Positions 8,964-64,000 of a stretch of 64,000 bases of DNA are shown piece after piece; within the stretch, counting starts at the first letter, position 1, and each line of letters opens with the position of its first letter. The notes beneath the pieces were generated by a model, which saw nothing but the letters and a program-made list of their open reading frames with translations, had not been told where the DNA came from and did not search any database. Source of the stretch: Taxawa tesnikishii (nom. ined.) (lineage: Eukaryota; Ascomycota; Dothideomycetes; Dothideales). Location: assembly GCA_030247885.1 (NCBI GenBank), contig JAPDRO010000001.1, positions 1,116,001 through 1,180,000 on the forward strand, written 5' to 3'. Made by a program: the position numbers and the translations under genes.

Positions 8964-10980
8964 ATGAGGCGGTTCGGGAAGTGCTGCTGAGCAGTCTGCT
9001 GCTCTGGCGAAGTGTATCTGCACAACTCAACAACGACACCAGCCCGACCTCAGTATTTCGCTCGGTAAGCGACAGTGCGACAACGGGAGCCACGTGCATC
9101 GGGATGTAGCCGGCTAACAGCTGTGTGGCTATACAGAGGCCGGATCTTCATGCACCAATCATGAAGATGGAAATCATGAAGCAGGAGCTCGTGAGCCCGG
9201 GTTATGTTTTCATCGCACCCTACCGGAACGTGGATCCTGGCCCATACATCTACGACAACTGGGGAAACCTCGTGTGGTCGGGAGCGGGTTCCAGCGGGCC
9301 AAAGACTGCGCATAATCCACACGTGTGCCAATACAGGGGCGAAGATCATTTGTGCTATTTCCAAGGAGAGCAACACCAGGGTTTTGCTCGGGGACACGGA
9401 GTCATCATGGACAAGAATTACCGGATTGTCAAGACTGTTGAGAGTTCAGGCGCAGGCGCATCCGCCGACATGCATGAGTTCAGGATGACTCCGTACTCAA
9501 ACAGCACCACCGCCCTCGTCACGGTATACCAACCGCGGATGTACGACTTGACGACCAATTCGCGTTTCAACATCAAGAGCGGCATGGGCTGGATTGTGGA
9601 GGGCGTCTTTCAAGAGGTGGAAATCGATACCGGAAATGTGGTGTTCGAGTGGAGGAGTACGGACCATCTGGATCCGAGTCTCAGCTATACATTTCCCGGA
9701 ACGACTGATACGTCTGGGAATGGTTTGCACGAAGACACGCCATGGGACTATTTCCACATCAACTCCATTGACAAGAACTCGGAGGGCGATTATCTCATCT
9801 CTGCACGGCACATGGCGGCCATTTACAAACTATCTGGAGTGGATGGTCACATCATGTGGGAAATGGGGGTGCCAACCCGACGTTTCACCAAACAAACTTC
9901 AACTTTTCTTCTCAGCATCACGCGCGCTGGATCAGCGAGAATGGAACCCACACGCTCTTGCGCTTCTATGACAACGCCAGCAACGGTTACAACAGGACCG
10001 ACGCCTTTTCTCACGGTTACATCATAAGCATCAACCACATCGACAACACGGCCACGATGATCGCACAGTATGGTGCACCAGAACAGAGCGGCGGTATTCT
10101 ATCTGGCTCACAGGGCAACATGCAACTCCTGCCCAACGGCAACGTCCACATCGGTTGGGGCGAGCACGCGTACTTCACTGAGCACACTCCTGATGGTCAA
10201 GCTGTCATGTACGGCAAATTGGCCGATCGCGCTTCCAACGTGATGGTCTATCGGTCGAACAAATACAACTGGACGGCAACACCCCTTACGAAACCCGCAC
10301 TTTGGACCTACTCACGCAGCAAGCAGCGCAGGTCCGGAACCGTTTTCTACGTTTCCTGGAACGGAGCTACTGAGGTGCGGTCCTGGAACTTCTACACTTC
10401 GCAGAACGCCACTGGACCGTTCACTTTCGTGGGAAACGTCATCAAGACCGGATTCGAGACGAGAATGGTGACTACGAACCACACCGAATGGGCCTTTGCA
10501 GAGGCGATGGATGCAAACGGCAACGCGCTGGAGCGCAGTGTGATTGCGAAGACGTTCGTGCCGAGTGACAGCCTCCGCGCCTTCTGCGACGACTACGGAT
10601 GCGGCAAAGCAGAAGCCTCAGGCCCTGGAGACAGGCTCAGCAAGGACCCGAAGTACACGCCCGTGAAGGAAGAATACCTGAGCATCAACCGCGACTTCAA
10701 CACCAGCAAATACTACGCCGACCTGCCCTACAGCAACAGCAGCTACTTGAGCGGGAGATTGAGCACAGGAGGTTTGAAGATGGCGGCTGGCGTTGTGGCT
10801 CTACTGGCTCTGAGTCTGGTTGTTTTGCTCTTGTTCAAGAGGGATCCTCCCAGCCCCTTGCGTCCGCTTCAGGAGAAGCTGAATATGGGCGTGTCGGGAG
10901 CTAAGGAGATGTGGATGAACAGCCCGCTCGGCAGATACACCAAGGTGGGAGATGAAGACGACAAGTACATGCGTGTATGA
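8964..10980 (+). CDS. Arylsulfotransferase-like protein (Arylsulfotran_2), membrane anchored
   Basis: Exons approximately 8964-9064 and 9137-10980, about 648 residues. The N-terminus is signal-peptide-like (VLLSSLLLWRSVSAQ), then RPDLHAP at the exon junction. The body is a beta-propeller-type arylsulfotransferase with PGYVFIAPY, DNWGNLVWSG, ADMHEF, DYFHINSID and GGILSGSQGNMQLLPNGN, and many N-glycosylation sequons. Near the end a single helix (MAAGVVALLALSLVVLLLF) is followed by a basic cytoplasmic tail, so it is probably a type I membrane protein facing the lumen or exterior. The frame is broken by one base twice: the ATG at 8964 is out of frame with the signal peptide, and a G5 run at 9865-9869 separates two long frames. 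Both are best explained by a missing base. An upstream first exon is an alternative for the 5' break. Substrates of the fungal family are unknown. Confidence 0.8.
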
Positions 10981-12023
10981 ACGTTGGAGGGAATCCTTTT
11001 TGCTGCCTGCTGTTCGTTGTTCCGAGCCGGGTCTGCTTCTTGGATGAGTAATCGGTGATCTGAGGGCGCATCTGTTTTCCAAATGTGGATGGTGTTGACT
11101 TTTGGTTGCTGCGGCATTGGGCGGAGTTTTCTTTCCGGAAAGAGAAAGCACCAAGGATACCACTGATAGTTTTACTGTATAGTCTCTGTACATAGCATGT
11201 CAACACTCGAAAGCGTCTGGTTACACATATTGCTGCGAACCGTCGGCCGTGTTTTGGTTGGCCGTGTGGGATTTCTCCTGTTCCACTGTCACCCCCTGTC
11301 CTCAGATCACATTGTAGTCAGTCTTCCGACGTAGGTTCCTCATCGGCAGGACTCCGGACTTGTTGCAAGCATGTTCGGACACTTGTAGCAGAGTGCTGTC
11401 TGTGCTCCAGAAACCGTTTTCCTATGCCGCGTGTCTCTCGGGTGTAACGGTACCTGGTCGGGTACGGGAATGCAAGATGAGTCGGTACAAGTCCGCCGTT
11501 GGCATGGCGCACGGCCAAGACACGATGCATTGCATGCTGCAAGCCACCCGGTACCGCTCCGCTTTCCCAAGAAAACTTGACAGATTCGTGTATCTTTGCC
11601 AAGGTCCTAGCTGCCGCTTTTGGTAACAAAGCTACCATCCACAGAACAATAGGCATTACCATCGCTGCAACGTCAGACATGGCCGCGCCACGCTGGCCTC
11701 GTCACTTCCTAACTTCTCTCCTCTCCTTTGCTGCAAACGTGGCCTTTCCCTGCGCACACGTTTTCTTAGCGCGAGACACTGCTTGCGCTGCCGGATGGGC
11801 TCCTGTAACGACTAGAGTGCGCGTCCTCTCTTGGCATCTTGTGTCGATTGACACCCCGTAAGTCGGGCATATCTCCATCGCTGTGTGTCTGGCGGTTGCT
11901 GTTTGCTGCTTCTGCAGCCCCTTGTATCGACTTGCCGCTCTTTTCTCCTCCAGGATATGTGCCCGTCCTCGGCATAAATGCTAAGAAACTAGCACTTCTC
12001 ACTTGCTTTCCTAACCCACGACC
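10981..12023. other. 1-kb intergenic region
   Basis: Contains the 3' flank of the arylsulfotransferase gene and a pyrimidine-rich leader of the MFS gene. A 120-codon minus-strand frame at 11318-11680 has no recognisable domain. Nothing else seen. Confidence 0.45.
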
Positions 12024-15940: not shown

Positions 15941-17773
15941 TTACGGTTTCAGAAGATTGTTAATGTCAACCCGCTGGTAGAAAGCAATGTGACCGAAACC
16001 CTCCCAATACTGGGCCAGCCGGTCATGAGAGATGAGGATGAGTTGCGATGGGGTGTACTCGTCTGTAGCAATGGTCAGCCAAGCCATAGAGGGTATGGAA
16101 GATTTTGGAGACAGCCGTGGTGGGTTGAGAGTTGACCATGATGAGAGGGAACAGAGGAACGAAGGAAGCACAGGACATACCATTTCTAAACCCCCGCCAC
16201 GCACTATGTCCGGCAGCTCTCACCATCCTGGCGCCCTGGAACAGCTCGTCAGACGCCACTCTGACAAGTCCAGCGTCGCTCAGGTCGGGCGCAATGAACG
16301 TGTACTCGCCACGGGGAACGTTGGGATCCCCGGTCAACTTGATGGCTTCAAGACGGCCGGTGTAGGCATCATTGCTCGCGTCGTCTTGCGCTTCCGCCGA
16401 CGATGACTTTTAAACGAGCCTACAGAGCCGGGGCGAGGATCCCAATCCACGGCAGCGGCGGCGAAGTCGTCATCGCCATCTTCTCCATCTTCGTCCTCGA
16501 GGACATCCATGATAACGTCTTCCTGTGCACTCGTAGAGCTGTCTTGTGAGCTCACGCTGCCCCTGCGTCCTGTAGCGAGCCAGTCGCGCATCCAGTCCAT
16601 GCCTCTGGGTAATGGCGATTCCGTGCCCTTGTCCGGCTGGTTGATGAGCAAGAACTCGCAGCCGTGACCACTGTAATCACCGCACCAGATCCCCCGCCAC
16701 GGCTTCTCAGGCGTTGGGGTATAACATTCTGGTGGAAGCGTTCCGTACGTGGCTACCTCCTCGCCCATGCGCACGCTGACCCCACCGCCCATCATAACGC
16801 CCATATTGCTGTTGAGAAAGCCAAGTCCAAGCGCGGCGGACAGACGATCTGCGCCCGCAAAGTTCATGAGTGAGCTGCTGTTGCGCCGGCCTGAGAACTC
16901 AACCCACTTCCGCAGCCGGAAGGTGTTCTGACTGACCTCGGCGAGCTTGGCGGGACGATGACCGGATGAGGAGAAGGAGTCGGAGGATGCGTTGCGTGTG
17001 CGGGAAGGGGCGGGAATCCGGAGAGGTGGCCAAACAGAGGTTGCCGCTCCTGTGGCTTCGGGTGGGAGGTCACGAGCGAGCATGAATGAGGTGTATAGGC
17101 CTGCGGGGGCAGAGCAATCCATCAAGATCTCGCGAGCCAATGGCGGGATTGGGGAGCTGTAGTCTTCCACGTCTTCGTTGTCCCTGTTTCCATGCAGAAG
17201 TATCCGACGATGGGGAAATCCCGGCCGAGACTTGGCGTTGACTTCGGTGCGTGGACTGCCAATGTCGAGTTTCAGGACTGGCTGGTTGAGATCGAGCTGC
17301 ACACGCGGGCGGAAGCTGTGGATTGCAACGCTCTGGTCATGTTGCCAGAGTTCAAAGGTATGGAAGCCTCGCTCGGCGACGACGGAGTAGGCTTCTATGC
17401 ATCCTCGACGGGGGTCATAGCGAGAGACGAGTAGTTTCCCGCTGGGCTCACTGTCGGAGAACCAGATCCTGTGGCGGGGAAGAAACCAGTAGGGTTGATG
17501 AGCTACGTAGAGGTCACGGAAGGAAGAGGCTGGCTTCGGAGAGTGGATCGGTTCTGGCAGGTTGTAGTTCACTATAGGTTGCCACAGTTGGTCCGACAGC
17601 GAGTGAGTGTACAAGAGGCGACATGTGGCAGAGACGGAAGCCAGGTCGGTAGGTGGAAGATGAGCGAGAACATGGTGGAGCAATTCGGCAGGGAGAGCCA
17701 AGAGCGACAACGGCCGATCTTCTACCACGGTCATGGTCGTGGTAACGGGCAGTGTTGTTCTTGCTGGGATCAA
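15941..17773 (-). CDS. F-box protein with conserved C-terminal ligand domain
   Basis: Exons (minus) 17773-16181 and 16062-15941 give about 571 residues. The F-box at residues 22-65 (LLALPAELLHHVLAHLPPTDLASVSATCRLLY) would bind Skp1 in an SCF ubiquitin ligase. After it come FRDLYVAHQPYWFLPRHRIWFSD, a long middle with a Gly/Met-rich part, and an acidic low-complexity stretch. The conserved end is KLTGDPNVPRGEYTFIAPD, then RNDEYTPSQLILISHDRLAQYW and FGHIAFYQRVDIN. This layout matches fungal F-box proteins related to the FBXO31-like group; the target is unknown. The two halves are in different frames, joined at an A4 run (16408-16411 on +) where one extra A restores continuity. The 118-nt intron lies within GFRN|DEYTP. 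The start is the first ATG of the open frame; Met14 is an alternative. Confidence 0.85.
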
Positions 17774-18681: not shown

Positions 18682-19949
18682 ATGTCGGAGAGATCGACGT
18701 CCTCACTCTCCGCATCCGCCCCTGCCTTCTCGCCCTCTGCACCCACACCGCCCGTCAACCACATCATGGACACCTTCGCGCAAACCAATCCGCAAGCCGG
18801 GAACCAGCCATCCGACGCGCCAGAAGAGTCCATGGAGACACGCGCCTCCGAAAACCTCTTTGACGACGACTTCACCCCCATTCCCGAGCCCGTTGTAGAG
18901 CAACCTGCGCCTGAAACTCCACGAGCGGCACGTGGAGACAAGAGGGAAAGAGGGACACGTGGGAGGGGCAGAGGGGGAGGGGAGGGGAGGAGGAGGAGGG
19001 GAGGGGCAAGAGCACCCGCACAGGCGAGGGAGGGTGCCGGAGCGCCGTCTTCGTTATTACAATCCCAGCATGCGCCCGCTCCGGCACAACCACAGCAACC
19101 GTCTCAACAAGCGCAAAACCCCACACCAGCAGCTCAAGACAACTCCCTAGCGCCCGCCTCCTCGCTCCTCCAATCCCGACACGCACCGCCGACCCCTGGC
19201 GCCAGCAAACCCGCCCCCGTGAGAGGCGATCGCCTCTCCACCGGCGGACTGCGTAAGCCCAAGCTGACCGAAGCCGAACTTGCCGAAAAATTGAACAGGA
19301 TGAAACTTCAGAATGCCTCCCTGGCTGCCGCGCACGAGCGTGCAGAAGCCGACGCAGCCTCGTTCCACCAACGCGAGGCCGAAGCCGCGCAGAAGAGGCA
19401 AGAGGAGAGGCGGGACCGGCAGCAGATGCTCGGAGAGCGGGAACGGAACCGGCTACGCAAGCTCAAGGCCACGGAAGGGCGCGAGTGGGACGCCGAGAAA
19501 CGGGACGAAGACTTGGTGGGGCGGGGTGGAGGGCGGGGTGCTGCGAGGGGGCCTTTGGCGGCGTTGTAGGAAGCAGGCAGAGTGCATCGGATGGGTTCGC
19601 GGGAGACGGGGAAGACTACACGGATGGGCGCGAGTATATGCACAGGGAGCCTCGTGGCCGGGGAGGAAGGGGCGGACGGCGTGGTGGCGAAAGAGGAGGA
19701 CGTGGAGGTGCCAGAGGAGGCGCACAGACACAGGCACAGGCACCGCCTACAGCGACGGATTTCCCCGATCTGCCGAGTGCAAAAGCAGCGGGCGAGAAGG
19801 GAGGCGCAGACGCAGCGCCTGTGCTGTCATTCCCAGCAAAGTCGGGTAAAGTCGAACAGCAGGCTGCCGCGGGTATGGACAGTAACGATCAACCGCCAGG
19901 CGATGAGGCAAGCAAGTCGTGGGCGGATATGGTCGAGTCTGCGTCGTGA
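18682..19949 (+). CDS. RGG/Arg-Gly-rich low-complexity protein, putative RNA-binding
   Basis: A single exon of about 422 residues starting MSERSTSS. The order is a disordered Ser/Pro N-terminus, the motif ENLFDDDFTPIPEPVVEQPAP, and an RGRGGGEGRRRRGG block. Two LLQS(Q/R)HAP repeats follow. A charged helical segment (KLTEAELAEKLNRMKLQNASL through ERDRLRK-like sequence) comes next, then a second RGG block (EPRGRGGRGGRRGG). The end is TDFPDLPSAK and a C-terminal KSWADMVES. RGG boxes and the FPxLP-type end are common in fungal mRNA-binding or ribosome-associated proteins. The exact family is not recognised. The frame changes at a G5 run (19547-19551); one more G joins AARG to AFGGVVG and continues to the end. 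Confidence 0.75.
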
Positions 19950-23908: not shown

Positions 23909-24757
23909 ATGGACGCCTCCGCCTATCTCAAGCGCCACGGTTGGCGGGGCCTGGGCCACTCCCTTGACAGTACCGATAACGGACTCAAGCGCCCGCTGCT
24001 CATCTCGAAGAAGGTCGACGTCCTGGGGATCGGAATCAACAGGCACGATGTTATTGCCGATCAGTGGTGGATGAAGGCGTACGACAGCGGGTTGAAGGAC
24101 TTTGGAACGGGGAAAAAGGGCTTGTTGGCTCAAGTCGCAGAACACGGCGTCAAGCGGGGTGGGCTTTACGGGCGTTTTGTCAAGGGCGAGGGCGTGCCGG
24201 GAACGTTCGAGGTAGAAGCGGTGGATGTGGTAGATGGTGCGGGCAACGGGTTGGTGGCGAACGGATCCGACAAGGTGGATGCGTCGAAGGAAGGGCGGAA
24301 GAGCAAGAAGAGGAAGGCTGTGGATGAGGGGTTGGAGACCGGTGATGGGACGACGAAGAAGAAGCAGAGGAAGGATCGTAAGGGCAAGAAAAACGGGGAT
24401 ATGAAGCTCACCGCGGACGAGGCACGTGCGCTAAAGAAGGCTGTCAAGAAGCTGTCAGAAACGAAGCGGGCCCAGTACGAAGAAGGCGCAAAGAGACGGG
24501 GCATGACACTCGAAGCCTACGTGCAAAATCGCCTGCGGAAGAACGCTGGGAAGGCTACTGCGAAGAAGGGGAGATCAGTGGCAGCTGAACGCACGCACGC
24601 CCGCCTGTTTCGAACATCGTTCAGAAAGCGGCATCCGGGGGCCGTGTTTTGCCGTTGTACGTGCCACAATCAGGAAGCTGGATCTCCCGAGACAACACGA
24701 CGGCTTACAGAGCACCCGGAAGACGTGCTCGTCTATCCAGACCGTTCTTCAGGATAG
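23909..24757 (+). CDS. G-patch protein, Tma23-like ribosome-biogenesis factor
   Basis: An open frame of 282 residues. The N-terminus is the signature MDASAYLKRHGWRGLGHSLD, then GLKRPLLISKKVDVLGIG, QWWMKAYDSGLKDFGTGKK and GVKRGGLYGRFVKGEG. This is the Tma23-type G-patch, with aromatic and Gly spacing as in yeast Tma23, a nucleolar 40S assembly factor. The middle is Lys-rich with nuclear-signal runs (KSKKRKA, KKKQRKDRKGKK), and a helical stretch ALKKAVKKLSETKRAQYEE follows. Residues after about 230 are uncertain. Two frames compete there, and a G5 run at about 24633-24637 would, with one more base, switch the end to the frame that stops at 24879. The N-terminal two thirds are secure. Confidence 0.82.
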   Translation: MDASAYLKRHGWRGLGHSLDSTDNGLKRPLLISKKVDVLGIGINRHDVIADQWWMKAYDSGLKDFGTGKKGLLAQVAEHGVKRGGLYGRFVKGEGVPGTFEVEAVDVVDGAGNGLVANGSDKVDASKEGRKSKKRKAVDEGLETGDGTTKKKQRKDRKGKKNGDMKLTADEARALKKAVKKLSETKRAQYEEGAKRRGMTLEAYVQNRLRKNAGKATAKKGRSVAAERTHARLFRTSFRKRHPGAVFCRCTCHNQEAGSPETTRRLTEHPEDVLVYPDRSSG

Positions 24758-25217: not shown

Positions 25218-26790
25218 TCATTCTTTTGGCACTCTGCCACCCCTCCCGGCCAAGATCCACGGTCGCTGCTCCCAAAATCCGTTCTTGATGATGTCGACAT
25301 GCTGAACTACGACGCGCGCTTTCTGTTTCCTCTTGCGTTCCTTTTCCGCTTGCGTCTTGGAGAGGGGCTTTGCGCTGGCTTCGGTAGTGGCTACGTCGCT
25401 TGTGGATGGCGGGTCGTCGTACTGTTCAGTGAGGACGAGTTTGAGAGAATGGAAAAAAGGGGACTCACTTCGCGAAATACAACACTTCCCTTCTTGTAGA
25501 TCTCCGGCTCGTTGTTATAGTTTATCTTGAACCGGCTGAAGAGGATCTCGTTCTTGTCCGAAGACAGCGTGCCCTGCGATAGCAGTCAATATCCAGGTTG
25601 CGAGGAGAAAAGTAGAGTGCTGTGAACGTGCTTTTAATTCCAATTCCGCGTCCGTGGGGCTCATCCCGCCTAGTTGCACCATGGACCAGAATGTAGTGTT
25701 GTAGAGGTTGTTGATATGACCTGACCAGACCGCCCTTGTCAGCTTTGTCACCGGCCGTACATTCTCACACCGCACTCTCTCTCTCCATCCCTCCTGCATT
25801 CCGAATCACGGAAACGAGATCAAACGTACAATCTGCCTGTCTCCAGCTCAGGTAATCCCGCAAGTTTTTAGTTTCGGGTACAACACCGTGCGTCCGTCAA
25901 ACGTCGGGTAAGGTCTCGTGAGGGGCTCGTCAGGGAAGAAATCCGGCCACTGCATAGCATATTCTACGGAAAAGGTCGTTGAGATAGTTGTCGCTAATTT
26001 GCTATTCCATGCTATTAGTTTACGGAGCGCCCGCAAATCTGGAAGCGGCCAAGTTTTACGGATGGAGCAAGTAAACTGCGAAGGCAAAAAGAGGGGACGT
26101 ACAAAGCTCTGCGTTCGAAAAGCGCTGTCTCTTCGTGGAAGACGAAACTGTGGCCTTAGTTAACCCCTGCACGATCCTTCTTCGTTTTTCGCCCATTCAC
26201 TGCTTTTTCTCCGGCTTCTTCTGTTCCATATGGGCTCAGGGACGACAGCATGATAGTCACCCTTACCTGTATTCGTCACTCTGCCCATACGCGAGCACGA
26301 TATCAACGAATTGCTTCACGACCTCGACGGCCGCCGAATTCATGAGATCGATAGCGCGGCGATCGTTTGGTTTTGCAAAGTTGTAGCGTTTCGAGAACCT
26401 GTGTTCTGGATGTCACCATCGATCCTTGCGCCTGCCTCGCTCGATAGCGCCGCATATCGCATATCTCTTGGCCTGCTCTGATATCTCGTCCTCTGATGAT
26501 TCTGCTTTGTTCAAAGCATGAAAACAACCATGTCCATCGGCAACAAAAGAAAACAGGCTCTTAAACCTGATCCGACCTTCCAGCGATACCTTCCAAAAAG
26601 AACGGAACGTTGCGAAAAAAAGCAGTGACTTACTTGCTGAAACCTTTCCCATCAATGCGCACGACGATCCAGTTATCCGGGGCCAGCGCATCCCACTGTT
26701 CATGCTTGCGTACGTATTCGAACCTATCCTGCTCTTCAGATTCTGCCTGGGAGAAAACGTGACCACTGTTACGTACTCGCTGTTTGCCAT
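25218..26790 (-). CDS. thg1: tRNA(His) guanylyltransferase Thg1
   Basis: Eight exons on the minus strand: 26790-26773, 26728-26634, 26398-26267, 26147-26103, 26001-25830, 25720-25632, 25573-25469 and 25421-25218, giving about 286 residues. Thg1 adds G(-1) to the 5' end of tRNA-His by reverse (3'-5') polymerisation, the identity mark for HisRS. Visible are [11 protein letters not shown] (metal-binding Asp32), [22 protein letters not shown] (Asp79, Glu80), the [11 protein letters not shown] motif, [25 protein letters not shown] and a basic C-terminus. The first exon is 18 nt (MANSEY). One intron appears to use a GC donor (exon ends at 25632, GCACGT...CAG). Exon 5 carries an A5 run (T5 at 25865-25869 on +) where one more A restores [15 protein letters not shown]; as given, the frame stops there. 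Confidence 0.92.
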
Positions 26791-30500: not shown

Positions 30501-33007
30501 ATGGGGAAGAGTACGATATTTGAATCCGAAAGGAATACGCTTGCCTTCGACGGACTGCTGACCCACAACAGCAGTCATCTGAGAGATATTGATCGTCGAA
30601 CCCTTAGATCCAGACCGGGCCATCTGGATGGCGTTGTTCAGATCCTTCAAACTCTTCTCAGTCTCACTACCAGCTTCGTCACGAGCATTGTTGAGCGCAC
30701 GCGAAACCTTGCTCTCGAAGGTCTCTCGAACGTTCATACCGGGCAATGGCTCGAGTTCGTTAGCGGTAGCTTGTTTAGTGATCTCATCGACTTCCGCCTT
30801 CTGCTCGTTCACAGCGTCGGTGATGGCCTCGGCGGTGCGGGGATCGGGGACAGTATCACCAATACCTATACTGAAACCATTGTGAAGCAGCCAGTAGTTG
30901 ACCACTCGCTGCATACCGTTGAAGAAGTTGACGGCAGCTTCCCAACCTTTTTCGTTGTAGATGATGTGGATGATACCACCACCGCTTGCTCCGATTGACT
31001 TCTTGCTAAACAAGCCATACATGAGCTCTCCGCCATGGACCATCAGGCCGGTATCGTTGAGTGGACTCAACCCTTCAGAATCGGATCTGACAAGGTTGAG
31101 ACCAGTAGGAATAACAAGACTGACGATTTGTTTACCAGTCCAACGAGGACGTGGCTTAATGATGGCTGGCGGAGGAACAACGCCGTCCCAGTCAGGGACC
31201 CACATGAGGATGTTCATGACCTGCTCTTTGTCAAGGAAAACATCTCTGCGGCACATCTTGTATGCACCACAAAGCGTGTCCTGAACGATACCCATCAAGG
31301 GACCGTTGCGCTGGGGCGAGACGATGTTGAGAGGGACCATGCAAAGATGCATCACCTCGGACCGAGTCTCATGGCTTTGGGGAACGTGCAAGTTCATCTC
31401 GTCACCGTCGAAATCGGCGTTATAAGGGGTGGTGACAGACAGGTTCAGTCGGAAAGTCGAATACGGCATAACACGGACACGATGACCCATCATAGACTCC
31501 TTGTGCAAAGACGGTTGTCGGTTAAAAATGATAACGTCGCCATCAACGATATGTCTCTCGACCTTGTACCCGTACTGCAACTGTATCTCTCCGGCGCGCT
31601 TGTGATGCCGCAGGTCAATTCTCTCGCCAGTGTCTCTGATGACGAACCTGGCACCAGGATGTTCGTTAGGTCCGTTGCGGACAAGTCCTTGCAGCTTGTC
31701 GATATTGTACTGGTTGACAGTTTCGGGGAAGGTCAGAATGCGAGCGATACTACGCGGGACACCGACCTCGTCCAACGAAAGGTTTGGGTCACCAGTAATG
31801 ACAGTGCGTGCTGAAAAGTCAACACGCTTGCCCATCAGGTTACCTCTGAGACGGCCTTCTTTGGACTTTAGACGCGCGCGAATGGCCTTGACTGGTCTTC
31901 CAGATTTCTGCAGGGCCTTCGGTTGGCCTGCGATGTCGTTGTCCATGTATGTGGCAACGTGGAATTGAAGGAGCTGTTCAAACTCGGCAACGACGTGCTG
32001 GGGTGACCCTTCTTGCTCGCAACGCCGGACGTTGCTGTTCGCACGAATGATATCGCTCAGCTTGTAAGTCAAGTCATCCTCGGACCGCAAGCCCTGGGCT
32101 GTTCCATCGACGGACACACTTGGGCGTACTGCGGGCGGTGGAACCGGCAGCACGGTCAGAATCATCCACTCGGGCCGAGCATAATCGGCGTTGAGCCCCA
32201 TCTTCGCCATGTCGAGAGCTGAGATGTTACGGAAGACATTGAGCGCCATCTGTGGTGTGATCACCCGCTTCTCAATCCTCTGTTCCGTGTCCGCATCTTT
32301 CGGGTATGTCCATGTTCCAGTGAGCTTCAAACCATCTTTCCGTATGCTTGGTTGGAGGTTGCCGCATCCTCCATGTGTCCTCTTGGGCTTCTTCAGATCA
32401 GCCTTGGGGTCGTTGCCGAACTCGCCGCCGTCTTCCGGCGCCTCGTCGAGGTCACAGCTCAACTTGGGCTTGCAAAGTCTATGCACAGCGTCGAAGCGTC
32501 TCTTGGGGTCTCTCATGCGTACAGCCTGCGCGAATTGTGGAACGCTCTGAACGACTTGCATCAGTATCAAAGGATGTCAGCACTACGTGTGAGAACTCAC
32601 TTCATCAAGCAAGATCTTCCCGCAGTTGTGGCACACAGTCTCGAGGATCTTCTTGATCTTAGTGACGAAGCCTACGAAGCGTCAGTGTTTCGCTCTGGGC
32701 CTACCGGCACAGTGCTACTAACCGACGTGGTACACCGGTACTGCCAGCTCGATGTGCCCAAAGTGACCCGGACACTCGAGGTAGTCTTCGCCGCAAGTAG
32801 CGCATTGTGTCCCACGATCGATAGAACCAAGTTTTGGGTCGTTCAGACCTCTTTCCCGAGGCTTGTGTCTCTGTTCGTCCATGGTTTCCGGATACTCAAT
32901 GGCACAGACACTCATGTTTTTTATTTCTTCTGGGGAAAAGAGTCCGAACTGGATCTCTTGAATGCTCTTCAGCGGAGCGCTGGAATGGGGAAAGAGTGGA
33001 TCGACAT
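27541..33007 (-). CDS. rpb1: RNA polymerase II largest subunit Rpb1
   Basis: Minus-strand exons 33007-32723, 32671-32601, 32546-27613 and a 16-nt last exon 27556-27541, giving about 1768 residues. Visible in order: the zinc-binding clamp ([28 protein letters not shown] and [11 protein letters not shown]), the catalytic magnesium loop [10 protein letters not shown], the bridge and trigger helices ([22 protein letters not shown]), and the CTD of YSPTSPx-like heptads. As read, the ATG at 33007 (MSIHSFP) is out of frame with HSSAPLK because of a C4 run (G4 at 32987-32990 on +); one more base joins them. The last intron is inferred: donor GTAAGT after KYSP, a GCTAAC branch site, acceptor CCAG, then a tail adding NSPSQ. 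A stop directly after SPK is the unspliced alternative. Divergent from swd1. Confidence 0.96.
27613..28290 (-). repeat. Rpb1 CTD heptad-repeat array
   Basis: About 25-30 repeats related to YSPTSPx. The promoter-proximal part of the CTD is degenerate ([23 protein letters not shown]); the centre is near consensus ([14 protein letters not shown]). Two insertions interrupt it (NKAGI and NGAGKSH). Position 7 favours N, A, Q and S over K. Confidence 0.9.
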
Positions 33008-35956: not shown

Positions 35957-38900
35957 TCAGTATCTCAGCTTGCCGACAAGGCCAAAAGTGTATGCACAAT
36001 CTCGTTCCTGTCATCAGGTTAGCCTCTTTCCTCTCCAAGTCGTGATTTTCTCCATAGCCACTGTACTTACCGACTTCATCTGCACCATGTAAACCCTGAC
36101 AATCCTGCCTCCCACACCCCCGTCTCCGCCGCTCTGCCCTGCTCGCCCACATCCTCCCACACACTGACGGCAATGCCCGTTCTGGCAACCCTCTCGAAGC
36201 AGCTCTCTCCCAGTGTGACATCAAGCAATGTCTCTCCCCTTGTCTTACCCGTGACCAGGACTCTCTTCTCGCGTCCCGTCGTCCTCGGGTTGGCGGGTAC
36301 ATTGGGGTTCGCGCGCGGTGGGATCATGATGGTCAATCTAGCCGATCCCATGTCACGCCACTTGCCCTCCCTCTCACGATGATACAGTCTGATCTTAGTA
36401 TTTGTAATTCCGACCGGCGTGCCCATGGTTCTTGGATCCACACCGCCCATACCGCCGAGCATGGGCGTACTGGCACCTGAGCTCAGAGACTCGGAATTGC
36501 TGCTCGAGCGCGTGGTGCGGTCGCCTGTCGTGCTGGTCACCGTGCTTTTCGAGATGTTGAAGGCGCGGTTGTTGCTCCCGGAAAAGCGTCGCAGGGCGCT
36601 AAAAGCGCTGTTCATGGTCCCGATACTGCTTTCGGTGCCCGCGATACTGGGCGCTCTGGTGCGGGTGCCTTTGCTTCTGTAACTGCTGCGCCGACCAAGG
36701 TGCCACCAGGAATCGCTGCTTCCGGTGCGGCGGCTGCTGTTGCGGCGCTCGATGCCCCCACCCCATGATCCGTTGCCTTCCACGGGACCGCGTGCGTTCT
36801 GCAGCGCAATGTAGGTCGGGTTGTTGATGCGTGCGGTGTTGATCTGGTTATAGAGGTATTCGCACTCTTCGGGGTTCCGCGAGCGGAACATGATGTTGCT
36901 GCTTGTGCGGATTAACGAGTTGACGCGCGGCGGGCTACGTATGCTGATGTCGAGAGCTGTTCCGCGCCGAAGGGGTACAAGAGGAGTGAGCTCGAGCGCA
37001 ACGAGGGGTTGGATGCCGCAAGTTGAAGGGCTGGATTCATCACTTTGGCCAGAGGGCAGGGGATGAGACTGGACAATGCTTGTTTCAAAGGCTTCGATGA
37101 GGCCGGGAGAGATGATGACGGTGATTTCACGCGGGTGCATGCTTTTCCAGCCGCCTTGATCTGACCAAGAGAAAATGGTGGCAATTGTGCGCGAGTACAT
37201 GCCATTACTCTGGGGAACGGTGCGGTAAGGGCTCTGAGAAGCGGATTGCGATGGAGAGATGGTGTTGCTTGTTACAGAAACTTCGGTCTCTGGGGGTGTT
37301 GGCTTTTCGAACACCGGTGCTTGTCCCAGAGGTGGCGATTTGATGGAACTCAAGCCAGGCGATTTCAGGCCAAGGGGATCTTCGTCGTCGGAATTGGAGG
37401 ACTCCGATGTAACTGATTCGTCATCTGAATAATCAGATGCGCTCTGGGACGAAGTATCCGTAGCAGTAGAGGGCTCGTACTCGTGTTTGAGTGGAGATGA
37501 TGATCTGCGGTGTCGCTTGAGGAAAGCAGGCGTGAAAGAAGCGAACGCACTCTTCTTAGGCTGGTAGGCAGATGGAGGGCTCTTTTGCAGCGTTGAAGGA
37601 CGCTTCTCTCTAGTAGGAGTCTTCTCGTCGCTCGGGATTCGCTTCTGCAGCTTTGCAGGCGCAGATGAAGGTGTTTGTTTCTCTGGCGAGTGACGGTCGT
37701 ACTCATCGTCGTAATGATCTCTGGTTGGTGTGCTTGGGCCACTTGATTTGCGAAGTTTGGGTATTGTCGGTAGATCCAGAGATGGGACAGAGGATGTCCT
37801 GCGAGCCATCTGAGGACGCACTGGAGTGCGGTCCGTAGGGTGATTCTCCTCATCCTCGCTAACGTCAGATTCGTCTGATGGCAAACCTGATGATGGCATC
37901 CAGACACTGTATTCCTTCTTTGAGGTCGACGTCGATGTTGTTGAAGTGGTGGAGCCTGTAGTGGCAGTCCATGTCGACTCCGACCTCGTATCGAGCATCG
38001 GGCGAGGAATATGCTTAGTCTGTGGCTCACGATGATCATCAGGCTCTTGCGAAGCACGCGGAGATGAGGGTATTGTTGGCGAAACAGGTGAAGTCCTATA
38101 CCGTTTCGCCTTTGTACGCTTCAGAATGGGGCTTCCTTGTGCGGCCGTTTGCTTGTCTGTGAAGTTGTATGCATCCGGCGTCATCGAATCGCGAAGGGGT
38201 GAGTTGGGCATCGAGTATGGTCTGGGCATCTCCTCCGTCGATGCACGTTTCTTGTGCAGGCTACTCGGCTGTCCAGACGGCAGGAGCACAGGTACATTGC
38301 CCAGGCTGTTCGAGGATACCTCCTTAGACCATCTCTTCGACGAAGGTTTCGCTGGCTCACCAATGGGAACCTCAACTTCCGTCGGTGATGGTACCCTGCT
38401 GTCAGTAATCTCACTGATCGTCTCAGGAGCATGTATATTCTCAGCCAGACTGCTCGTTGGTGGTAAGATTGAAGACGCTGCAAAACTGGGCTTCCTTGAC
38501 AATGAGGGCGGGACAGGTGACAGACCCAACATCTGCACCCACTCGAAACCGGCCTGCTCCTCGCTGGACCTGAAAGAAACGAGCTCATGCCACTCGGATC
38601 CGTCAGGTTGCCGTCCTCGGAACATAACAATGATCTCACCCTTGAGGTTACCATTCCGTGCGGAGACCATATCCTGGTGGATTGGTGGGAAGAGTAGCCA
38701 ACGGCCCGTATCCGAAACCTCACACACAAGCAGATCACCGCCATCGCCACGTTCAGGCAGGTTATCACGGAGCAGCAGCTCGACTTTGCAGTCGAGTTGC
38801 TGCCCGGTGGAATGGCGAAGATTCATGTCAAAGTAGTCCCTTGCGCGCACGCACCGTGCTGCATCAACACTGACCCCAGCCAGTAAGGCAAGGCTGCGAG

Positions 38901-41900
38901 GATCACGGGCGCGAGTCGGATCAATGCTTGCGGCGGCTTCATCTTCTAGCCTGGCTCGCTCCTCGTTCGAGCGCTTGCGGGCTTCGGTGACTAGTTCTTG
39001 ATACTTCTCTGCCATTGTAGTAGCTTGCGTGGATGGGTTGAGATGGTTGATACCCTGTTTTTCACTTAGCCAACCAAAGCACCCGTTCAACAGCGTCTTG
39101 GCCTACCTTGAAAGTCTTGGCCAGATACTTTAACCTAATGAGCGGCCTCTTGAGCAAGAATGCCACGTCCACTCTCTCGCCATCTGCGTCAAGCAAATCT
39201 CCATCCTGATTCCTTGGTAGTCCATCGTCCCAAGCAGCATTCTTCTGCGTGCCTTCGTCCGCAGGCGCAAGGTTGACAACGACATCCTGGAAGCCCATTC
39301 GCCACGCCTTCAGATAATCTGTATAAACTCTGATCGCACCCTGCGCCCAGGCGAGCAGAGCGTAAGCGTCTTTTGCGGAATGCGTTTGTGATGGCTTCTG
39401 AGACGCTCTAACGCAACGCCCATATCGACAATAGGCTGTGTGATAGCGGAGGCATTGGTTGCCGATTTGCCGAACAAGCCAGCCGTGATGGCGGAGTCAG
39501 ATTTAGACAACACACAGGTGAGCAGAACAGGAATAACGCCGTCGACAAGAGTGCGGAGCTCGCGTTGGTATTTTGTTTCGTCGGATGCTAATTCGTCCAT
39601 TAGATCTTGGATGGTGGCGGTCTCCAATCGAACTCTGTTGCTGCGGATGCTGCGTGCTGACATTATGCTCTTTCCATCCCCGCGTGGCAGAGACAGCACC
39701 GACATCAAGTCTTCGTGGGTAGTGAGCTTACGTCGGAGACCGCAAGCACTCCTGCCATCTCGGTGTTCGCCTATCAAAGCTTGCTCAACTGCCTGCATTG
39801 TAGGGCTGTCATCAGCAATGATGGTATGCTCCGATGTCTCTGAGGGCGCAGAGAGGATTGAGGGTTCCGCGCGGCTGTTGAGAGTATCCACTGAGGCAAT
39901 AGTAGACAGTCGCTTGCCGGTCGATGGGAACATGCGGCGAAGGTTAGCGCCAGGTGCATGTCTGCTGAAAGACGTCTCCGGCACATCAATCGGACTCGGA
40001 CCGACAGAGGAGCCTACGGAAGAAGCATTGTCTTCCTCGACTACTTGGGGTGAAACGATGGGTCGAACCCTGATCCCATCGTCGTTTCCAACAGGAGCAG
40101 GTGAGATTCCCGGCGAAACCTTCGGGGACGCTTTGGGGAGGCTTTCAGGGGTTCCGGAGAAGTAACCCTTTCCATGTCTGGTTTCCTGCCTTTGGTGTTA
40201 TCAGGCGTCACCTTCTCATCATCCGAATGTTGCCTTGAACCGTGGCCGCTCCGTCGTTGAGACTGGTGCTTCTGTTTCTTCTCCGCTGCTCCGTTTTCCT
40301 CATCAACTGCAAGAGGTGACACGGCTCTCGGTGACTTTGCCATTGATTTTGGCGCTTCCTCAAACGGGTCAGCGGTCCCTGTCAACCAAGCCTCAATGCG
40401 ATTCCCAAAAACCTGGGGTGGGGCGGTAACAGGAGGAGGCGGCGGCGTGGGCGAAATCTTGATATCTCGCTGATACTGTCTTTCCGCCTCTGAAGGACGC
40501 CTACGCAGTTCTGGCTTGGATGTGAGACGCTCACGTAGCGGGCTCCTTGTCCTTTTACCCACCGGCTCGTTTCTCCTGCTGATGCTGTCATCCGGCCCAG
40601 GCGTGAGGACAGACTCCTCGTCCAACACTGGCTCAGGGGAAGGAGATGATGGACGGGGCCTTCTGCGCATTCTTCGTCTCTCACGCCGCTCAATCTCGTC
40701 ATCCGTATGCCTGGCCGATTGATCGCTTCCAGAATGCCTTCGTTCGTAGTTCTCCTTGTTTTCAGGTTTCAACCGGCTGCGTTTCCTTCGTGGCGTTTCG
40801 CGCGCTCCAATCTCGTCTCTTCCTGACGGCGGGGTTGCTCCGCGTTCGAGAGATCTTTCTCGTTCCCTAGGAACGGGTTTAAAGGATCTCACTCGGGTGC
40901 CGTCATCTCCGCTCGGCGAGGTCTTGAGTCCAACATCGGCAACACTGCGTTTGATGGTGTAAGATCTCGGACTTTTATCCGCGCCGTTGGCCTCTTTCGT
41001 GACACTCCTCCTGATAGTGTAAGGTCTAGGCTCTGTTTCTGGTGTCGCAGGCTCCTTGGAAGCGGATTTCTTCACAGTACGCGGGATGGGATCCGTGTTT
41101 GGCGTCACCGGCTCCTTAACAATGGATCTCTTAGGCGTGACGACCTTCGCCTCGGTATCTAAGGTGATCGGCTCTTTTGCGGCCACAGTCCGCTTGATAA
41201 TGTACGGTTTCGTCTCTGTCGCTGGTGTTGCCGGCTCCTTCTTTGTTGGCGAATGATCTCTCCGCCAGTGGCCATCACTAACCACCCTCTTCTTAGGCGC
41301 TCCGACATGTTTCAACTCCAATTCCAGCTCGTTCTGCGGCTTGCTCCTCCGCCTCACCCACGCCTTCTTTTCGATATCTATCTCCTTCGATGTGCGCGCC
41401 TTGGTAGGGTCCCTGTTCGGCGTAGGGGTAGCCTTGACCGGAGATCGCGCCCTGATTCCCTCCTCTTTTCCGCTTCCAGGCCCATCGTCCGTAATCACTG
41501 TAATGAGGGCAGGTGGCTCGTCGTCTTTGCTTCCTTTCTTATTATCATCGTACTCCACCACCACAATGTCATCCTCGGCCGGTACGACTCCACCTCCCTC
41601 AACTTGCCATCTCCGAATCTTTTGCGCCGCAGGAGGATCGGAGGTATGCTCCTTCAGTTTATCGAGATTGAGGCTCTTCTTGCGTCCGGATGGTTGGGCA
41701 GCTGCGCGGCGAGCAGCGGGAGCAGCATTGGGAGAGGCGGGCATTGACGCCTGCAGTGGGGAAGAAAGCCAGTCAGAGACTGTATATATGTGCGGTGGAT
41801 TGGAGGAAAGAAAATCTCTGAGAGAGTCCTTGTGCTTGCGCATGAACATGATGACTGTAACACGAGAGCGTACGTACCTGTTGCCAGGCGCATACAGCAG

Positions 41901-42878: not shown

Positions 42879-43824
42879 CTACCTGAGCTTCTTTGAGGCG
42901 TTCAGCTTCGCCTGGGCTTTGAACGCATCGGCGCAAGCCACGATGCTGTTGTAAATCAACACTGTGTTCGAGATCAGCAATTGTCATGTCTCTCCTTGCA
43001 TACTTGAGCACTCACGACTTGGGATCACGATCCAGAAAAAGTTCATCAGGAAGTAGTAGCCCCAGTAGTAGTATGCCTCCGGCCTGGAGTACGAGATACC
43101 CATGTAGTAGTGGTCGAACAGACTGGTGGCATAATACAGGATATCACCGTAAAGCTGGCCGAGGGAGACAACAATCTGGAGCGGGTGCCGCAGGGGATGC
43201 TCAAATGGGATCATGAGAGCGACGATGTAGCAGCCTGGACCCCAGCAGATCTATTGCAATGAAAGCATGTCTGTTAGCCTTATGCGAACCGTGATGAGAG
43301 ACCGGACAAAAGGTGGACTTACGGCAGTGATGGACTCCATACACAGCACGAACGCGTTTTGAGTGAGATACCGGGAGTCAGAGAAGGCATATTCCTTCCA
43401 CAGCTGTCCGAACAAAGTCTGCAGGGATCCCAGGTTCGCCTGGTTGAGTGCGTAGTATCCCTCAAAAAGAGATGTATAGATCCGCCTTCACATCGTCCTG
43501 TCAGCGCAGCCCACAAGCCCGTCTCTTCTGTTTCGAACATGGAAGTGAAGCAGACTTCAAGGACTCCTGCAGGTGTGTATACATACTCAAAACGAACCAC
43601 ATGACAGTGATCACTTCGCTCCCAGGAAGTTTCGGGTGGATCTTCTTGGACACGAGGTAGGTCCCGAAGAACAACACCGTACATCCCGCAGCGAAAATGG
43701 AAAGCAATTCCAGCACGCCCTTTTCATTGGCAACGTAACCTGCGATTTCAACCTCGACAGGGTAGTATGGGTGCGGCGGATGCGAGATCTTGGAGCCTCG
43801 CGTCGTGTTGACGGGAAGAGCCAT
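42879..43824 (-). CDS. EBP-family membrane protein (EXPERA domain; sterol isomerase-like)
   Basis: Four minus exons: 43824-43587, 43485-43323, 43250-43016 and 42961-42879, giving 239 residues, the usual EBP length. Hydrophobic segments include ELLSIFAAGCTVLFFGTYLV, EVITVMWFVLS, ICWGPGCYIVALMI and YYFLMNFFWIVIP. EBP signatures are present: the HLFFEGYYALN motif (His and Glu of the ligand pocket), a WKEYAFSDSRY segment with the second acidic residue, FEHPLRHPLQIVVSLGQLYGDILYYATS and a C-terminal dilysine-like end (KKLR) for ER retention. EBP enzymes shift sterol double bonds (delta8 to delta7). Fungi mostly use Erg2, so the substrate here is open. A T5 run (A5 at 43464-43468 on +) breaks the frame inside HLFFEG; one more T restores it. 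Confidence 0.88.
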
Positions 43825-44292: not shown

Positions 44293-45413
44293 TCACACCG
44301 CCGCGTAGCCGCCCCGCGAGCCATGTCCTTGCACGGTGTTTACGATCGACCTGCCCCAGTCCTTGACAAGGTAAGGCATGTCGCGAATGGTGTCGCCGTG
44401 CGGGAGGAGGTCCCAGCCACGGGCACCGTAGCGGTTGTAGTTGAGCCATGATCCGAAGATCAGGTAAGCAGCGACGACTAAGAAAACGCTGTTGTGCATT
44501 AGCGATCTGTCCAACCACAATGCTCATGTACCACTCACATGATCAGGAACCAAGTAAAGAACCCCCAATGGTTGGATTTGCTTGACGGCGCATGTTCGGT
44601 CTTTCCCTCGCATGCGTACTTGGTCCTCCAGTTCAGTCGCAAGACTTGAACTTGTCTGTCCGGCTCTCCCTCGACGTTAAAACTGACAAACTGCAAGCTC
44701 GGCTCGTCCTCCGGCTTCGTCTCGTCATCCTCATCGCCTTCCTTGCCCTTGTCCTCGCCGCCCTCTGCGCGTTTCTCCTCTTTCTTCTCGTCCTTGCTGT
44801 CCGTGCGAGTTTTATTCTCAACGTGCTCAAGGCCTGTCCTGTCTGGGTCGCACACGAACTCGATGATAGCCTTCTCCTTCAATCCCTTGGACTTCTCGAA
44901 AGGATAGCTTCCACCGTTGAACTCCACGCGCACCCCTCCCTGCCAGAATCGCTGTGAGATGCCGAATTTTTTAAGCGGGTCAAGACCGGATCTAGATGTC
45001 GGCCGTGCGAAGTCGCATATTCGCCTGCGATTGGAATCACTTTGGTGATGGTGTGGCTGTTGTCCGCAGGATTGTAGCTCTCTTCGATAGCGCATACTGT
45101 ATCGTGATTAGAACGATGCATCGACAACGTGGCTGGTAACGAGCTCACTCCGCGTGCCGCTGGGGCATCTGTCTTCCTTGGGTATGTTCTTTGCGATCTC
45201 CAGCGGGTTGCAAATGTCAACGGTGAATGTGGTGTTCGAAACGCTGGGTGGAGTCTCCACGATCTGGTGGACTGCATGTGGCCCCTTCAACTCGCTGAGG
45301 TCGAACGACTGCCCGTCTATCCGCAGATGACTACAATCGAAGGTCACTGCGGAGACTAATGATGGGAGGGCGAGAAAGGCGGAGAGCCCTAAGCTGGTTC
45401 CTTGAGATCGCAT
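44293..45413 (-). CDS. atg27: Autophagy-related protein Atg27 (type I membrane protein)
   Basis: Minus exons 45413-45149, 45096-44539 and 44488-44293 give about 339 residues. A signal peptide (LGLSAFLALPSLVSA) leads into the mannose-6-phosphate-receptor-like lumenal domain starting VTFDCSHLRIDGQSFDLSEL, with paired cysteines (CNP, CPSGTR, CAIEE). An acidic and Lys-rich insert occupies the middle (DSKDEKKEEKRAEGGEDK). Then NHWGFFTWF, a transmembrane helix (SVFLVVAAYLIFGSWL) and the conserved tail NYNRYGARGWDLLPHGDTIRD, ending SRGGYAAV. Atg27 cycles between Golgi, vacuole and endosomes and supports Atg9 trafficking. The frame is broken at an A6 run (T6 at 44967-44972 on +); one more A joins LTRLKKFGISQRF. 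The start follows the first suitable Met before the signal peptide. Confidence 0.93.
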
Positions 45414-58605: not shown

Positions 58606-58645
58606 AAGTAATGCGGAAGTTGACTGACGGAAGTCCGCATTACTT
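58606..58645. repeat. 12-bp perfect inverted repeat (hairpin, 16-nt loop)
   Basis: AAGTAATGCGGA at 58606-58617 pairs with TCCGCATTACTT at 58634-58645. The loop contains TGACTGAC, and GTCAGTC-like text follows just downstream, so a second, overlapping pairing is possible. It could be a footprint of a small DNA transposon or a regulatory hairpin. Confidence 0.6.
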
Positions 58646-59095
58646 ACTCAGTCAGTGCTTTTACATGCAAGCAATGCTGCAAGGGAGGAAAAACAAGCCG
58701 CACTGCGTGGGCGCTCAGCGTCTACTGAAGGGGAAAAATGCATTCGGCAGTGAAAGAGAAGCTGTATACTGTTTGTACAGGGTGGAAGTACCTAAGGCGG
58801 GTTGACATGTGCCAACCTCGGTCAAACAATGCAGATGACGTTCGGCTGTACCACAAGCCCCTCAATCTCCGCAAACAGAAAGGCTCGACTCCGCATCGTT
58901 TCCTGACAAGGTGGGATAGCGCACATGGCATGGCATGCATTGAAATCCAGATGGCCATGTTGCTACGCAGCGAACACGGACTGAGGTTGCGTTCCCCGAT
59001 GTCGCAACGCTAGAGCCGCTTGATCAAGAGGGGCTATGCACGATGGACCACGGATGCTGATGCTGATCCAACACTCATCCTTTCGGCGGTGTATC

Positions 59096-59105
59096 TTATA
59101 AAAAG
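59096..59105 (+). promoter_or_regulatory. TATA-like box of the carboxylesterase gene
   Basis: TTATAAAAAG lies about 65 bp upstream of the start codon, at a fitting distance for a short leader. Motif only. Confidence 0.45.
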
Positions 59106-59159
59106 GGTGCTATGTCCCCGCTTCTGATCTATATGTACAATTGTTAGACGGCGCGAACG

Positions 59160-61176: not shown

Positions 61177-61571
61177 GGCGCATACGGAGGAAGCCATGAG
61201 CGGGGCAGAGGGAAACGCAAGAGTGTGGGCGTGAAGAACGATGGGTAGGAACGGAGAACTATATCTACGAAAATCAAACACTTGCAGATGTCGATATCAG
61301 TTGATCCCAGTATATGAAGAGCTCGAGGTGGGTGAAACATTCATAGTATGTGCAAAGCTTCCGATTAATCTGTTTCCTTTTGAATGCCATGTTCATAAAG
61401 TCCTTCTGCATGGAACGTATCCTCCGTGGTAGCTAGAAAGGAAATCTAGCGCTAGCGTCGAAAGCAGTAAACATGAATCTAACAACATCCGGTACATTGT
61501 CCCAGTCAGGTCAGGAATGTGAATGTTTGGAAAAGAAAAGGAAGCCGACCTCTACTGCACAACCTCTCGCT
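61177..61571. other. 3' flanks of two convergent genes
   Basis: Convergent ends of the carboxylesterase and GT2 genes. Nothing coding seen. Confidence 0.5.
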
Positions 61572-64000
61572 CTAGAACGAGAAGGTCATCAGCGCCGGGT
61601 TCAGAGCGATGGGTAGTAGCAGGTGGCTAACAGCCACCGTGGCCATCGGCAGGATAGCGACAAAGTCCTTGATGTTCCAGCTGTAGGGGATGAACGATCC
61701 AACCGCGAGGACGATCATGACCACGATACTGACGAGTGAGAACGCGATGCTGTACTTGAACCTCTTGATCACTTTCGGCACCTCGACGAAGAAGTTGGAC
61801 GCTTCGGCCTCCTTTGACGTTGCGCCCCAAGTCATGTCGATCTCGAACATGTGCGCCAGCAGCGCTTGCGAGACGTGCAGGGACAGTCCGCCCAGGAAGA
61901 CGGCGAGCATGAGGACCCATTTGATGTTCTCGAGCAAAGCGGCGAAAAAGCTTTTCTCACCGATGCGGTACCGCATGACAGCCAGAGACAGGTTGCCTAG
62001 TCCGTTGAAGACGATGACGATGGAGAACCAGACCTTCCAGCTGTCGATGTAGTATTTATCCAGGTAACCATTGAACCAGCCTACGGCGAAGTAGTTGACT
62101 GTCGTCAGGATCCAGGCGGCGCCGATGGCATCTGCACTCACGTTAGCAGGAAGGTCTGGAGCGTTTCGTAGAGGCATGCTTACAGTAGGTGCCAATGTAC
62201 GAGATGATGGTGATCTTCGACGTGATGCGGATGTTCGAGAAGAGGAAGCGGCGGAATAAAGGTGTAAAAGGTCCGCGCCAGAGCCAGGTGCGAATAGGGT
62301 TGAAGAGCAGCTCGTTGCATCCGTATGCGTACTTCTCCCATCGAGCAAGTTCGTCGTAGACGGTAAGGGATACACCTTCTTTGAAGCCGTCGCCAGCCCA
62401 TGCTGCTAGGCGGATAATGTAGCCATTGCATTGTAGGCGGAGGGACATGTCCTGCGATTGAGTCAGCGTCGTGGTGAAGCGGGAAGCGATTGAGGCACGC
62501 ACAAAATCTTCAGAGACGTGAGATTCGGACCAGAACTTCTCGTAGCCATCTTCATCCATGTAAGAGACCTGCTGAATCGCTGACCAGCGGAGGATGGCGT
62601 TGTGTCCGACAAAAGGGGCGACATCTCCGTTCGAGACGGTGTATTTGATGGCAGTATAGATGAGATTGGTGAAGAACGTGATGCCGTTCTCAAAGAAGGA
62701 ATCCGTCACGTTCATCACACCGGAACTGAATTGCATGATACCCACATCCGGGCTCTGCTCCATTTCGCTGGCAGCGTCGAGGAGACAATCGGCCGGCACA
62801 CGTGTGTCGGAATCGATCAGGACGATGTAATCACCCATTCGAATGTTGCCATCGGCCCACGCGCGGTCGACTTCCTGAAGAACCTCTTTAAGGGCATCCT
62901 CGTAGGCACGTGCTTCATCTTCTTGCGACCAGTTGGCGGGTCTGTTGATGCGCTCGAGTTTTTCCTCAACTTTGCAGGAGAGCATGAGACCATAGTTCAT
63001 GTTAGATGCCTAGTGTAGAGTTAGCAAAGGTGAACCATGGCTGAACAAGGTCTGGTCGAATTGGGAAACTGATCGGCAGACGATGCTCCGCTTTCAGCTA
63101 CGGCAGGGTGTGCAGATGCAGCCACGCGCAGCTGAAACAAAACAAACCCCATGTATGACAAGACAATAGAAAGCATAACACGACGTCGACTAACCTTCTT
63201 GAATTTTCCTTTTCTAACAAAGCCCTCAGAGCCATGCTTTGGTCTGGCGGTCCATCCGATGCAGTTGTCGGCGTAGAAGTCGATTCTAGCTTGGCGTTCT
63301 TCCTCACTGATCAGTTGGAGGCCGTCTGTGTCCCAAGTCAGCACGTTGTTCATTCTTGCGCAGATTTCTCTCGAGACAAACCGTCATTGATGAACATGTT
63401 CGCAGATCCACCTTGGAGTTCGTATGTCGACATGGCCTGTTTGATCGATCTGACAGTGGGCTTGATGACCGACTCGAGACCTTCTTTGTACACCGGACAT
63501 TGGATAGTGATGTGTGGAAGCTGTCGGCCTTGGATACGGCGAGGAAGCAATGCAGAGTAGAAACGCGAGTTCTGCTGCATCTGACGGATGGGACCGATGC
63601 ACTGTGCGATGCATCCAACGACGACCTGAGCGAAGAAAAGAGTGAAGAAGATCTGGATGGGGGTGAGAAGAACGAAAAGAACCCGCATGTAGTTCTTGTC
63701 GACGGTGACCTCGATAGCAATCTGACGAAAACCGGCACCCAGCAAGACGATGATAATGGCGAGAGTGCAAGCAACAAGAACCGTGTTCTGAAGGTGCGTT
63801 GCTCTTGTTTCGGGCAGTATCTCGCCACTCTCCTCGTCGATTTCTGCCGCAACGACTTGCGGTGTCTTTTGTCCACTTCGTCTTCCATAGAATTGTCTCC
63901 AGTCCTCCAGACCAGATCCATGAGCTCACTTTCAATGAGACTAGCGCGCTGGATAAGGTGCTTAGGCTCATCGTCCCAAACCACGAGGAGCGCTTCCGAA
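61572..64000 (-). CDS. Polytopic family-2 glycosyltransferase (partial, N-terminus beyond window)
   Basis: Minus exons 64000(partial)-63382, 63325-63195, 63009-62503, 62451-62184 and 62131-61572. The visible part has a cytoplasmic WDDEPKHLIQRASLIESELMDLVW segment, a helix (TVLVACTLAIIIVLLGAGF) and another after MRVLFVLLTPIQIFFTLFFAQ. The GT2 core follows: ITIQCPVYKEGLESVIKPTVRSI, MFINDDGLQLIS, the DxD-type IVLIDSDTRVPADCL, HNAILRW, SEDFDMSLRLQCNGYI and a Trp-rich YDELARWEKYAYGCNELLFNP. Five or so C-terminal helices end in ALMTFSF. It matches the conserved Pezizomycotina GT2 group linked in other fungi to hyphal growth on surfaces; the sugar product is unknown. An A4 run (T4 at 63867-63870 on +) breaks the frame; one more A restores it. 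A 51-nt intron in SEDF|DM is a multiple of three. Confidence 0.9.

Follow-up and report, generated by a model that had tools for sequence, protein, structure and literature searches.

The 64,000-nt stretch of Taxawa tesnikishii DNA analysed here (the window; positions 1,116,001-1,180,000 of contig C1, in a genome assembly of 29.4 Mb and 34 contigs) raises the question of why conserved protein sequences step by one base from one reading frame to the next, at or near short runs of identical bases. An earlier note on this DNA had listed 13 such sites, and had considered homopolymer under-calling in the assembly to be the likeliest cause, with genome-wide -1 frameshifting or slippage at the runs as the alternative. 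The gene families in the window look fungal (Atg27, Rpb1, Thg1, and F-box/Cyclin_D1_bind). The findings described below point to homopolymer-length consensus errors of the assembly, a reading to which we assign a probability of about 95%, with no nuclear site directly proven.

The reading frames were inspected at all 13 claimed sites, and the open pieces on either side were then searched singly against Pfam and against solved structures. The window was also scanned with coding-statistics models (k=2, 3, and 4), which score introns as switches too and were thus used in a supporting role only. Introns were sought by a strict search (GT-branch-AG) at 11 run positions, including those of the 10 supported sites, and by a lax search for GT-AG pairs that lack a branch motif. 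Homology, on one side or on both, was found to support eight of the 13 sites, and coding statistics only supported two more, while three were left without support (Table 1). The 11 runs to which coordinates had been given are all present at those positions, and the same step direction was observed at all 10 supported window sites, in agreement with the uniform direction originally described.

Table 1. Claimed one-base frame steps in the window, with the evidence found for each
Feature	Position in window	Run	Strand	Evidence
One-base frame step, arylsulfotransferase-like gene (AST)	9865..9869	G5	+	homology both sides
Claimed second AST step, unsupported	8975..8979		+	short open pieces only
One-base frame step, F-box / Cyclin_D1_bind gene	16408..16411	A4	-	homology both sides, 185 bases apart
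Frame step, RGG-rich protein	19547..19551	G5	+	coding statistics only
Claimed Tma23 tail step, unsupported	24637..24641	G5	+	no coding switch
One-base frame step, thg1	25865..25869	A5	-	homology both sides
Frame step, nearest upstream ATG versus conserved start of rpb1	32987..32990	C4	-	homology downstream
Claimed third RhoGEF step, unsupported	36117..36121	G5	-	conflicting offsets
One-base frame step, DH domain of RhoGEF	39371..39374	A4	-	homology both sides
Frame step, RhoGEF N-terminal region	40148..40151	C4	-	coding statistics only
Frame step, EBP-like sterol isomerase	43464..43468	T5	-	homology downstream only
Frame step, atg27	44933..44942	beside G4 (44933-44936)	-	homology both sides
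Frame step, GT2-type membrane protein	63867..63870	A4	-	homology upstream

The clearest steps are those at which matched protein sequence continues across the change of frame. In the arylsulfotransferase-like gene, positions 6-182 of the Pfam profile Arylsulfotran_2 end at 9865 and positions 189-296 start at 9874 in the next frame; the statistical switch was placed at 9867 by the k=4 and k=3 models, and at 9929 by the k=2 model. Profile positions 1-41 of the F-box gene are likewise followed by 42-92 in the next frame, with a statistical switch at 16409. The thg1 pieces align with residues 94-139 and 133-153, respectively, of chain 3otb_A, and the Pfam families Thg1 and Thg1C were matched. In the RhoGEF gene, DH_2 profile positions 2-89 are matched in one frame, positions 86-182 in the adjoining frame, and the two pieces overlap by 13 bases in their coordinates, over four shared profile positions. 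The atg27 step had to be moved: it had been assigned to an A6 run (44967-44972), past which the ATG27 profile keeps the upstream frame as far as 44942, where the next run is the G4, and the downstream piece matches profile positions 79-201. The peptide LKKFGISQR, which had been proposed to span the Atg27 junction, lies in the out-of-frame stretch according to the Pfam match.

At three further sites, the homology is one-sided. From FPHSSAPL onward, the rpb1 piece aligns with 5x4z chain A, beginning at its residue 4, and the 34 residues that precede this motif contain no ATG in that frame. The downstream EBP piece matches residues 86-135 of 6oht_A, beginning beside the T5 run, and no convincing match to Pfam or to solved structures was found for the upstream piece, whose putative frame was assigned by eye against a known motif. 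In the GT2-type gene, DUF7928 was matched up to position 158 of its 160 profile positions in the upstream frame, ending at 63880, and the statistical switch lies at 63868 (k=2); the downstream piece has no Pfam match. Coding statistics placed a switch at 19543 (k=2) or 19550 (k=3) in the RGG-rich gene, whose pieces matched no Pfam family upstream or downstream of the step, and at 40124 (k=2 only) in the N-terminal region of the RhoGEF gene, where neither the strict nor the lax search returned an intron candidate.

The three remaining claims, for which the tested pieces gave no convincing Pfam match, did not hold up. Near position 8977 of the arylsulfotransferase-like gene, where the earlier note named no run, there is no run of four at 8975-8979, and the two short open pieces tested matched 0 Pfam families. 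The two open pieces downstream of RhoGEF 36117 have offsets of +1 and -1, and matched 0 Pfam families, with one sub-threshold match to GTP1_OBG. The G5 run placed at about 24635, near the end of the Tma23-like gene, does exist; the step does not have support, as the coding stretch ends at 24569 by statistics, with no switch, and Pfam matches are weak or absent.

Unaided, the scan recovered six of the 13 listed sites with k=2 (the arylsulfotransferase one 62 bases off), three with k=3, and one with k=4. The k=2 scan returned ten direct switches. Seven are of the -1 kind: six belong to listed sites, and the seventh is the intron at 34.87 kb. Of the three +1 switches, that at 62.16 kb is explained by an intron, and those at 39.06 and 6.44 kb are without explanation. 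The last of these, at 6441 on the plus strand, was seen with the k=2 model alone. The other lies in the RhoGEF gene (39065, minus strand) and has no strict intron match; an intron with an atypical donor could account for it, or a step in the opposite direction.

Unrecognised short introns would also displace the reading frame. Introns some 50 bases long seem to be common in this genome, two of the three control switches were explained by a GT-branch-AG intron (34.87 and 62.16 kb), and the lax search returned GT-AG pairs at the AST, F-box, RGG, Atg27 (G4), GT2, and RhoGEF 36117 positions. However, the strict search found an intron at none of the 11 run positions, ten supported sites among them, and the matched pieces leave no space for an intron in AST, thg1, and the DH domain. 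The lax pairs at AST, F-box (where there is one such pair and no branch-motif intron), Atg27, and GT2 would cut matched domain sequence. An intron is possible at the RGG site, which has five GT-AG pairs without a branch motif; as the explanation of the frame steps, introns are exceedingly improbable.

Frame steps were also found in nuclear genes outside the window. The whole genome was searched for the CCT-type, Hsp70, kinesin, and tRNA-synthetase families, leaving out matches with internal stop codons. Hand inspection of the listed junctions revealed intron-sized gaps at most of those in CCT and Hsp70 genes. One CCT-type gene on contig C1 and one Hsp70-like gene on contig C3 have no intron space, their adjoining pieces overlapping by four bases with one shared profile position. 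These two junctions were picked by hand before the DNA was inspected, and both (2/2) were found at a run of four, compared with a background in which 6.6% of the 10-base intervals of the window contain such a run. Two further steps were found in a copper-ATPase-like gene in L047, on a different contig, one beside runs of four and the other with runs of three only in the 65 bases inspected. The first step in this gene was placed at 4318 by the scan, and moved by homology to about 4446-4470. Scanning of L046 and L047 gave four direct switches, two of them in this gene; the others lie at 2651 on the plus strand of L046 (+1) and at 1896 on the minus strand of L047 (-1). No clear step emerged from the kinesin and tRNA-synthetase searches, in which the junction arithmetic fits introns, in one kinesin case (C23) only at the lower limit of about 44 bases. 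In the sugar-transporter family, nine of 323 candidates were scored, and no rate was drawn from them. Clear steps, two only in the conserved-family searches, look rarer there than in the window.

The assembly offers an internal comparison in its mitochondrial contigs. A second nuclear copy was not found for the 1,801 bases of the window that were searched in the genome, and 5.8S rRNA gave zero matches in the assembly at E 0.001. Contigs C26 and C28 share 99.4% identity across 15.4 kb, and a different mitochondrial DNA is present in several copies within contig C25. Over the 12,755 alignment positions of the C26/C28 block that was examined, 14 gaps of one base were counted, 12 of which fall in A/T runs of 5-9; by another scoring, there are 18 one-base gaps in 15,391 positions, 14 of them in runs of 5-9. 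In three pairings of C25 with its own copies, one-base gaps lie in runs of at least four in 36 of 41, 21 of 21, and 21 of 22 cases. Substitutions were also found (49 in the C26/C28 block; 85, 35, and 9 in the three C25 pairs), so that part of the differences between copies may be due to real variants. Judging by identities of 99.4-99.6%, the organelle copies would represent one DNA assembled repeatedly.

One-base differences of this kind also leave some open frames intact in one copy and broken in another. Hand-picked open frames (16 of 50 from C25 and 5 of 16 from C26) were compared with their copies, and 26 rows were kept, reciprocal pairs included, after those below 95% identity or 80% of length had been dropped. 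In ten of the 26 rows, one difference of a single base breaks the frame, and in nine of the ten it lies in a run of 4-8; these open frames are not proven genes, and the break falls inside the first 30 residues in six of the ten. Among eight mitochondrial tRNA pairs, six are identical, a seventh shows a substitution, and in the eighth one copy is a base short, at a position outside any run.

Contig C25 is itself palindromic, with 80,121 bases and two 500-N joins, and is likely a misjoined organelle assembly. The two different mitochondrial genomes (C25; C26/C28) are 78-93% identical in the matched stretches. The CCT search gave ten gene places, which we take to be about one set. Two mitochondrial genomes beside about one CCT set may indicate a second fungus or strain in the sample.

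Taken at face value, the uniform direction of the ten supported window sites (10/10) is what would be expected if programmed -1 ribosomal frameshifting, acting genome-wide, restored the frames in translation, and an in-phase heptamer, TTTCCCC, is present at the rpb1 site. However, this is the only X XXY YYZ heptamer in phase among the ten placed sites, and the runs start in mixed codon phases (0, 1, and 2 at four, two, and four sites, respectively). The A6 motif of atg27, TTAAAAAAT, one of two sequences that had been named as slippery, lies away from the frame change. Frameshifting cannot account for the run-length mismatches between copies, nor for the base lost from the mitochondrial tRNA gene, which is not translated, and we give it next to no probability. 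In Euplotes, many genes likewise need a change of frame (PMC4759687, PMC10235951, PMC5011710), but the shifts described in the cited sections of these papers are +1, opposite in direction to the steps found here, and occur at stop codons (PMC10235951) instead of at runs.

RNA polymerase slippage requires no fixed codon phase and would add a base to part of the mRNA, so that genes with short runs stay usable. Ten supported steps in the window and four elsewhere make 14 in all, and 13 of these are at runs of 4-5. A reader with runs in mind had picked the window sites, and their share at runs is therefore no independent test. Slippage leaves the mismatches between the assembly's own copies unexplained, and we know of no precedent for slippage that acts on every base, in essential genes, at runs of only four. 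The chance that slippage explains the steps is vanishingly small. The genome-wide recoding that had been raised as an alternative, whether by -1 frameshifting or by slippage at runs, is not supported, given the scattered phases and the near absence of slippery heptamers.

True deletions in the strain, for example through a mismatch-repair mutator or gene decay, would leave short runs in the DNA itself, and the loss of single bases from runs, which the steps fit, is the classic signature of a mutator. The genes affected include those of Rpb1, CCT, and Thg1, which are essential in yeast, and the pieces flanking the steps are well conserved, against what such deletions would predict; we regard this explanation as very unlikely. 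Equally unlikely is a mixed case, in which the smaller part of the nuclear short runs exists in the DNA itself and is rescued by transcriptional slippage or frameshifting.

Consensus error is favoured because conserved genes both in and outside the window show one-base steps at which no intron was found, and which lie mostly at runs of four or five, and because run lengths differ between near-identical organelle copies of this assembly. These mitochondrial differences, most of them of one base in run length, together with the nuclear steps outside the window, favour under-calling of homopolymers as the likeliest cause. A run of identical bases would have been recorded one base short in the consensus, from incompletely polished long-read data, while the real genes would be intact and read normally; each nuclear step would then be a run-length consensus error. 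Long-read data are the likely source, and the reads would be of the nanopore or an early PacBio type. Run length is not the whole story, since the tRNA base was lost outside a run and one copper-ATPase-like step has runs of three only. A third-order model predicted about 11 G/C runs of at least six, against 3 observed, which is weak evidence as the model was trained on the same sequence; by the same model, depletion of A/T runs of at least six is not clear (13 observed and about 17 expected). This last result weakens the case for consensus error, as do the two +1 window switches without explanation and the apparently lower frequency of steps in the conserved families.

Comparable errors have been described in other fungal assemblies. 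The cited sections on nanopore-only assemblies of Drechmeria coniospora report that full-length predictions were obtained for less than one-sixth of 305 conserved genes, and that most errors were in homopolymers (PMC7500977). As in those assemblies, one-base breaks are found here at homopolymers in conserved genes, and the open frames jointly rebuild the protein (PMC7500977). After polishing, insertions outnumbered deletions in D. coniospora, in the portion of the study cited, whereas all supported steps here are toward short runs (PMC7500977). For Oxford Nanopore assemblies of filamentous ascomycetes, homopolymer indels are described in the cited sections as a main accuracy problem, breaking frames and becoming fewer with depth, and no direction is claimed for them there (PMC9453082). 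The frame-breaking homopolymer indels reported there, in a study that inspected three genes, resemble the steps in the window (PMC9453082).

The frame steps are therefore real for the greater part, and they are most likely an artefact of the assembly and not a new mode of reading genes; their biological importance is most likely none. Genes predicted on this assembly will come out split or truncated at such sites, and claims of pseudogenes, gene loss, or recoding in this fungus that rest on the assembly alone are unsafe.
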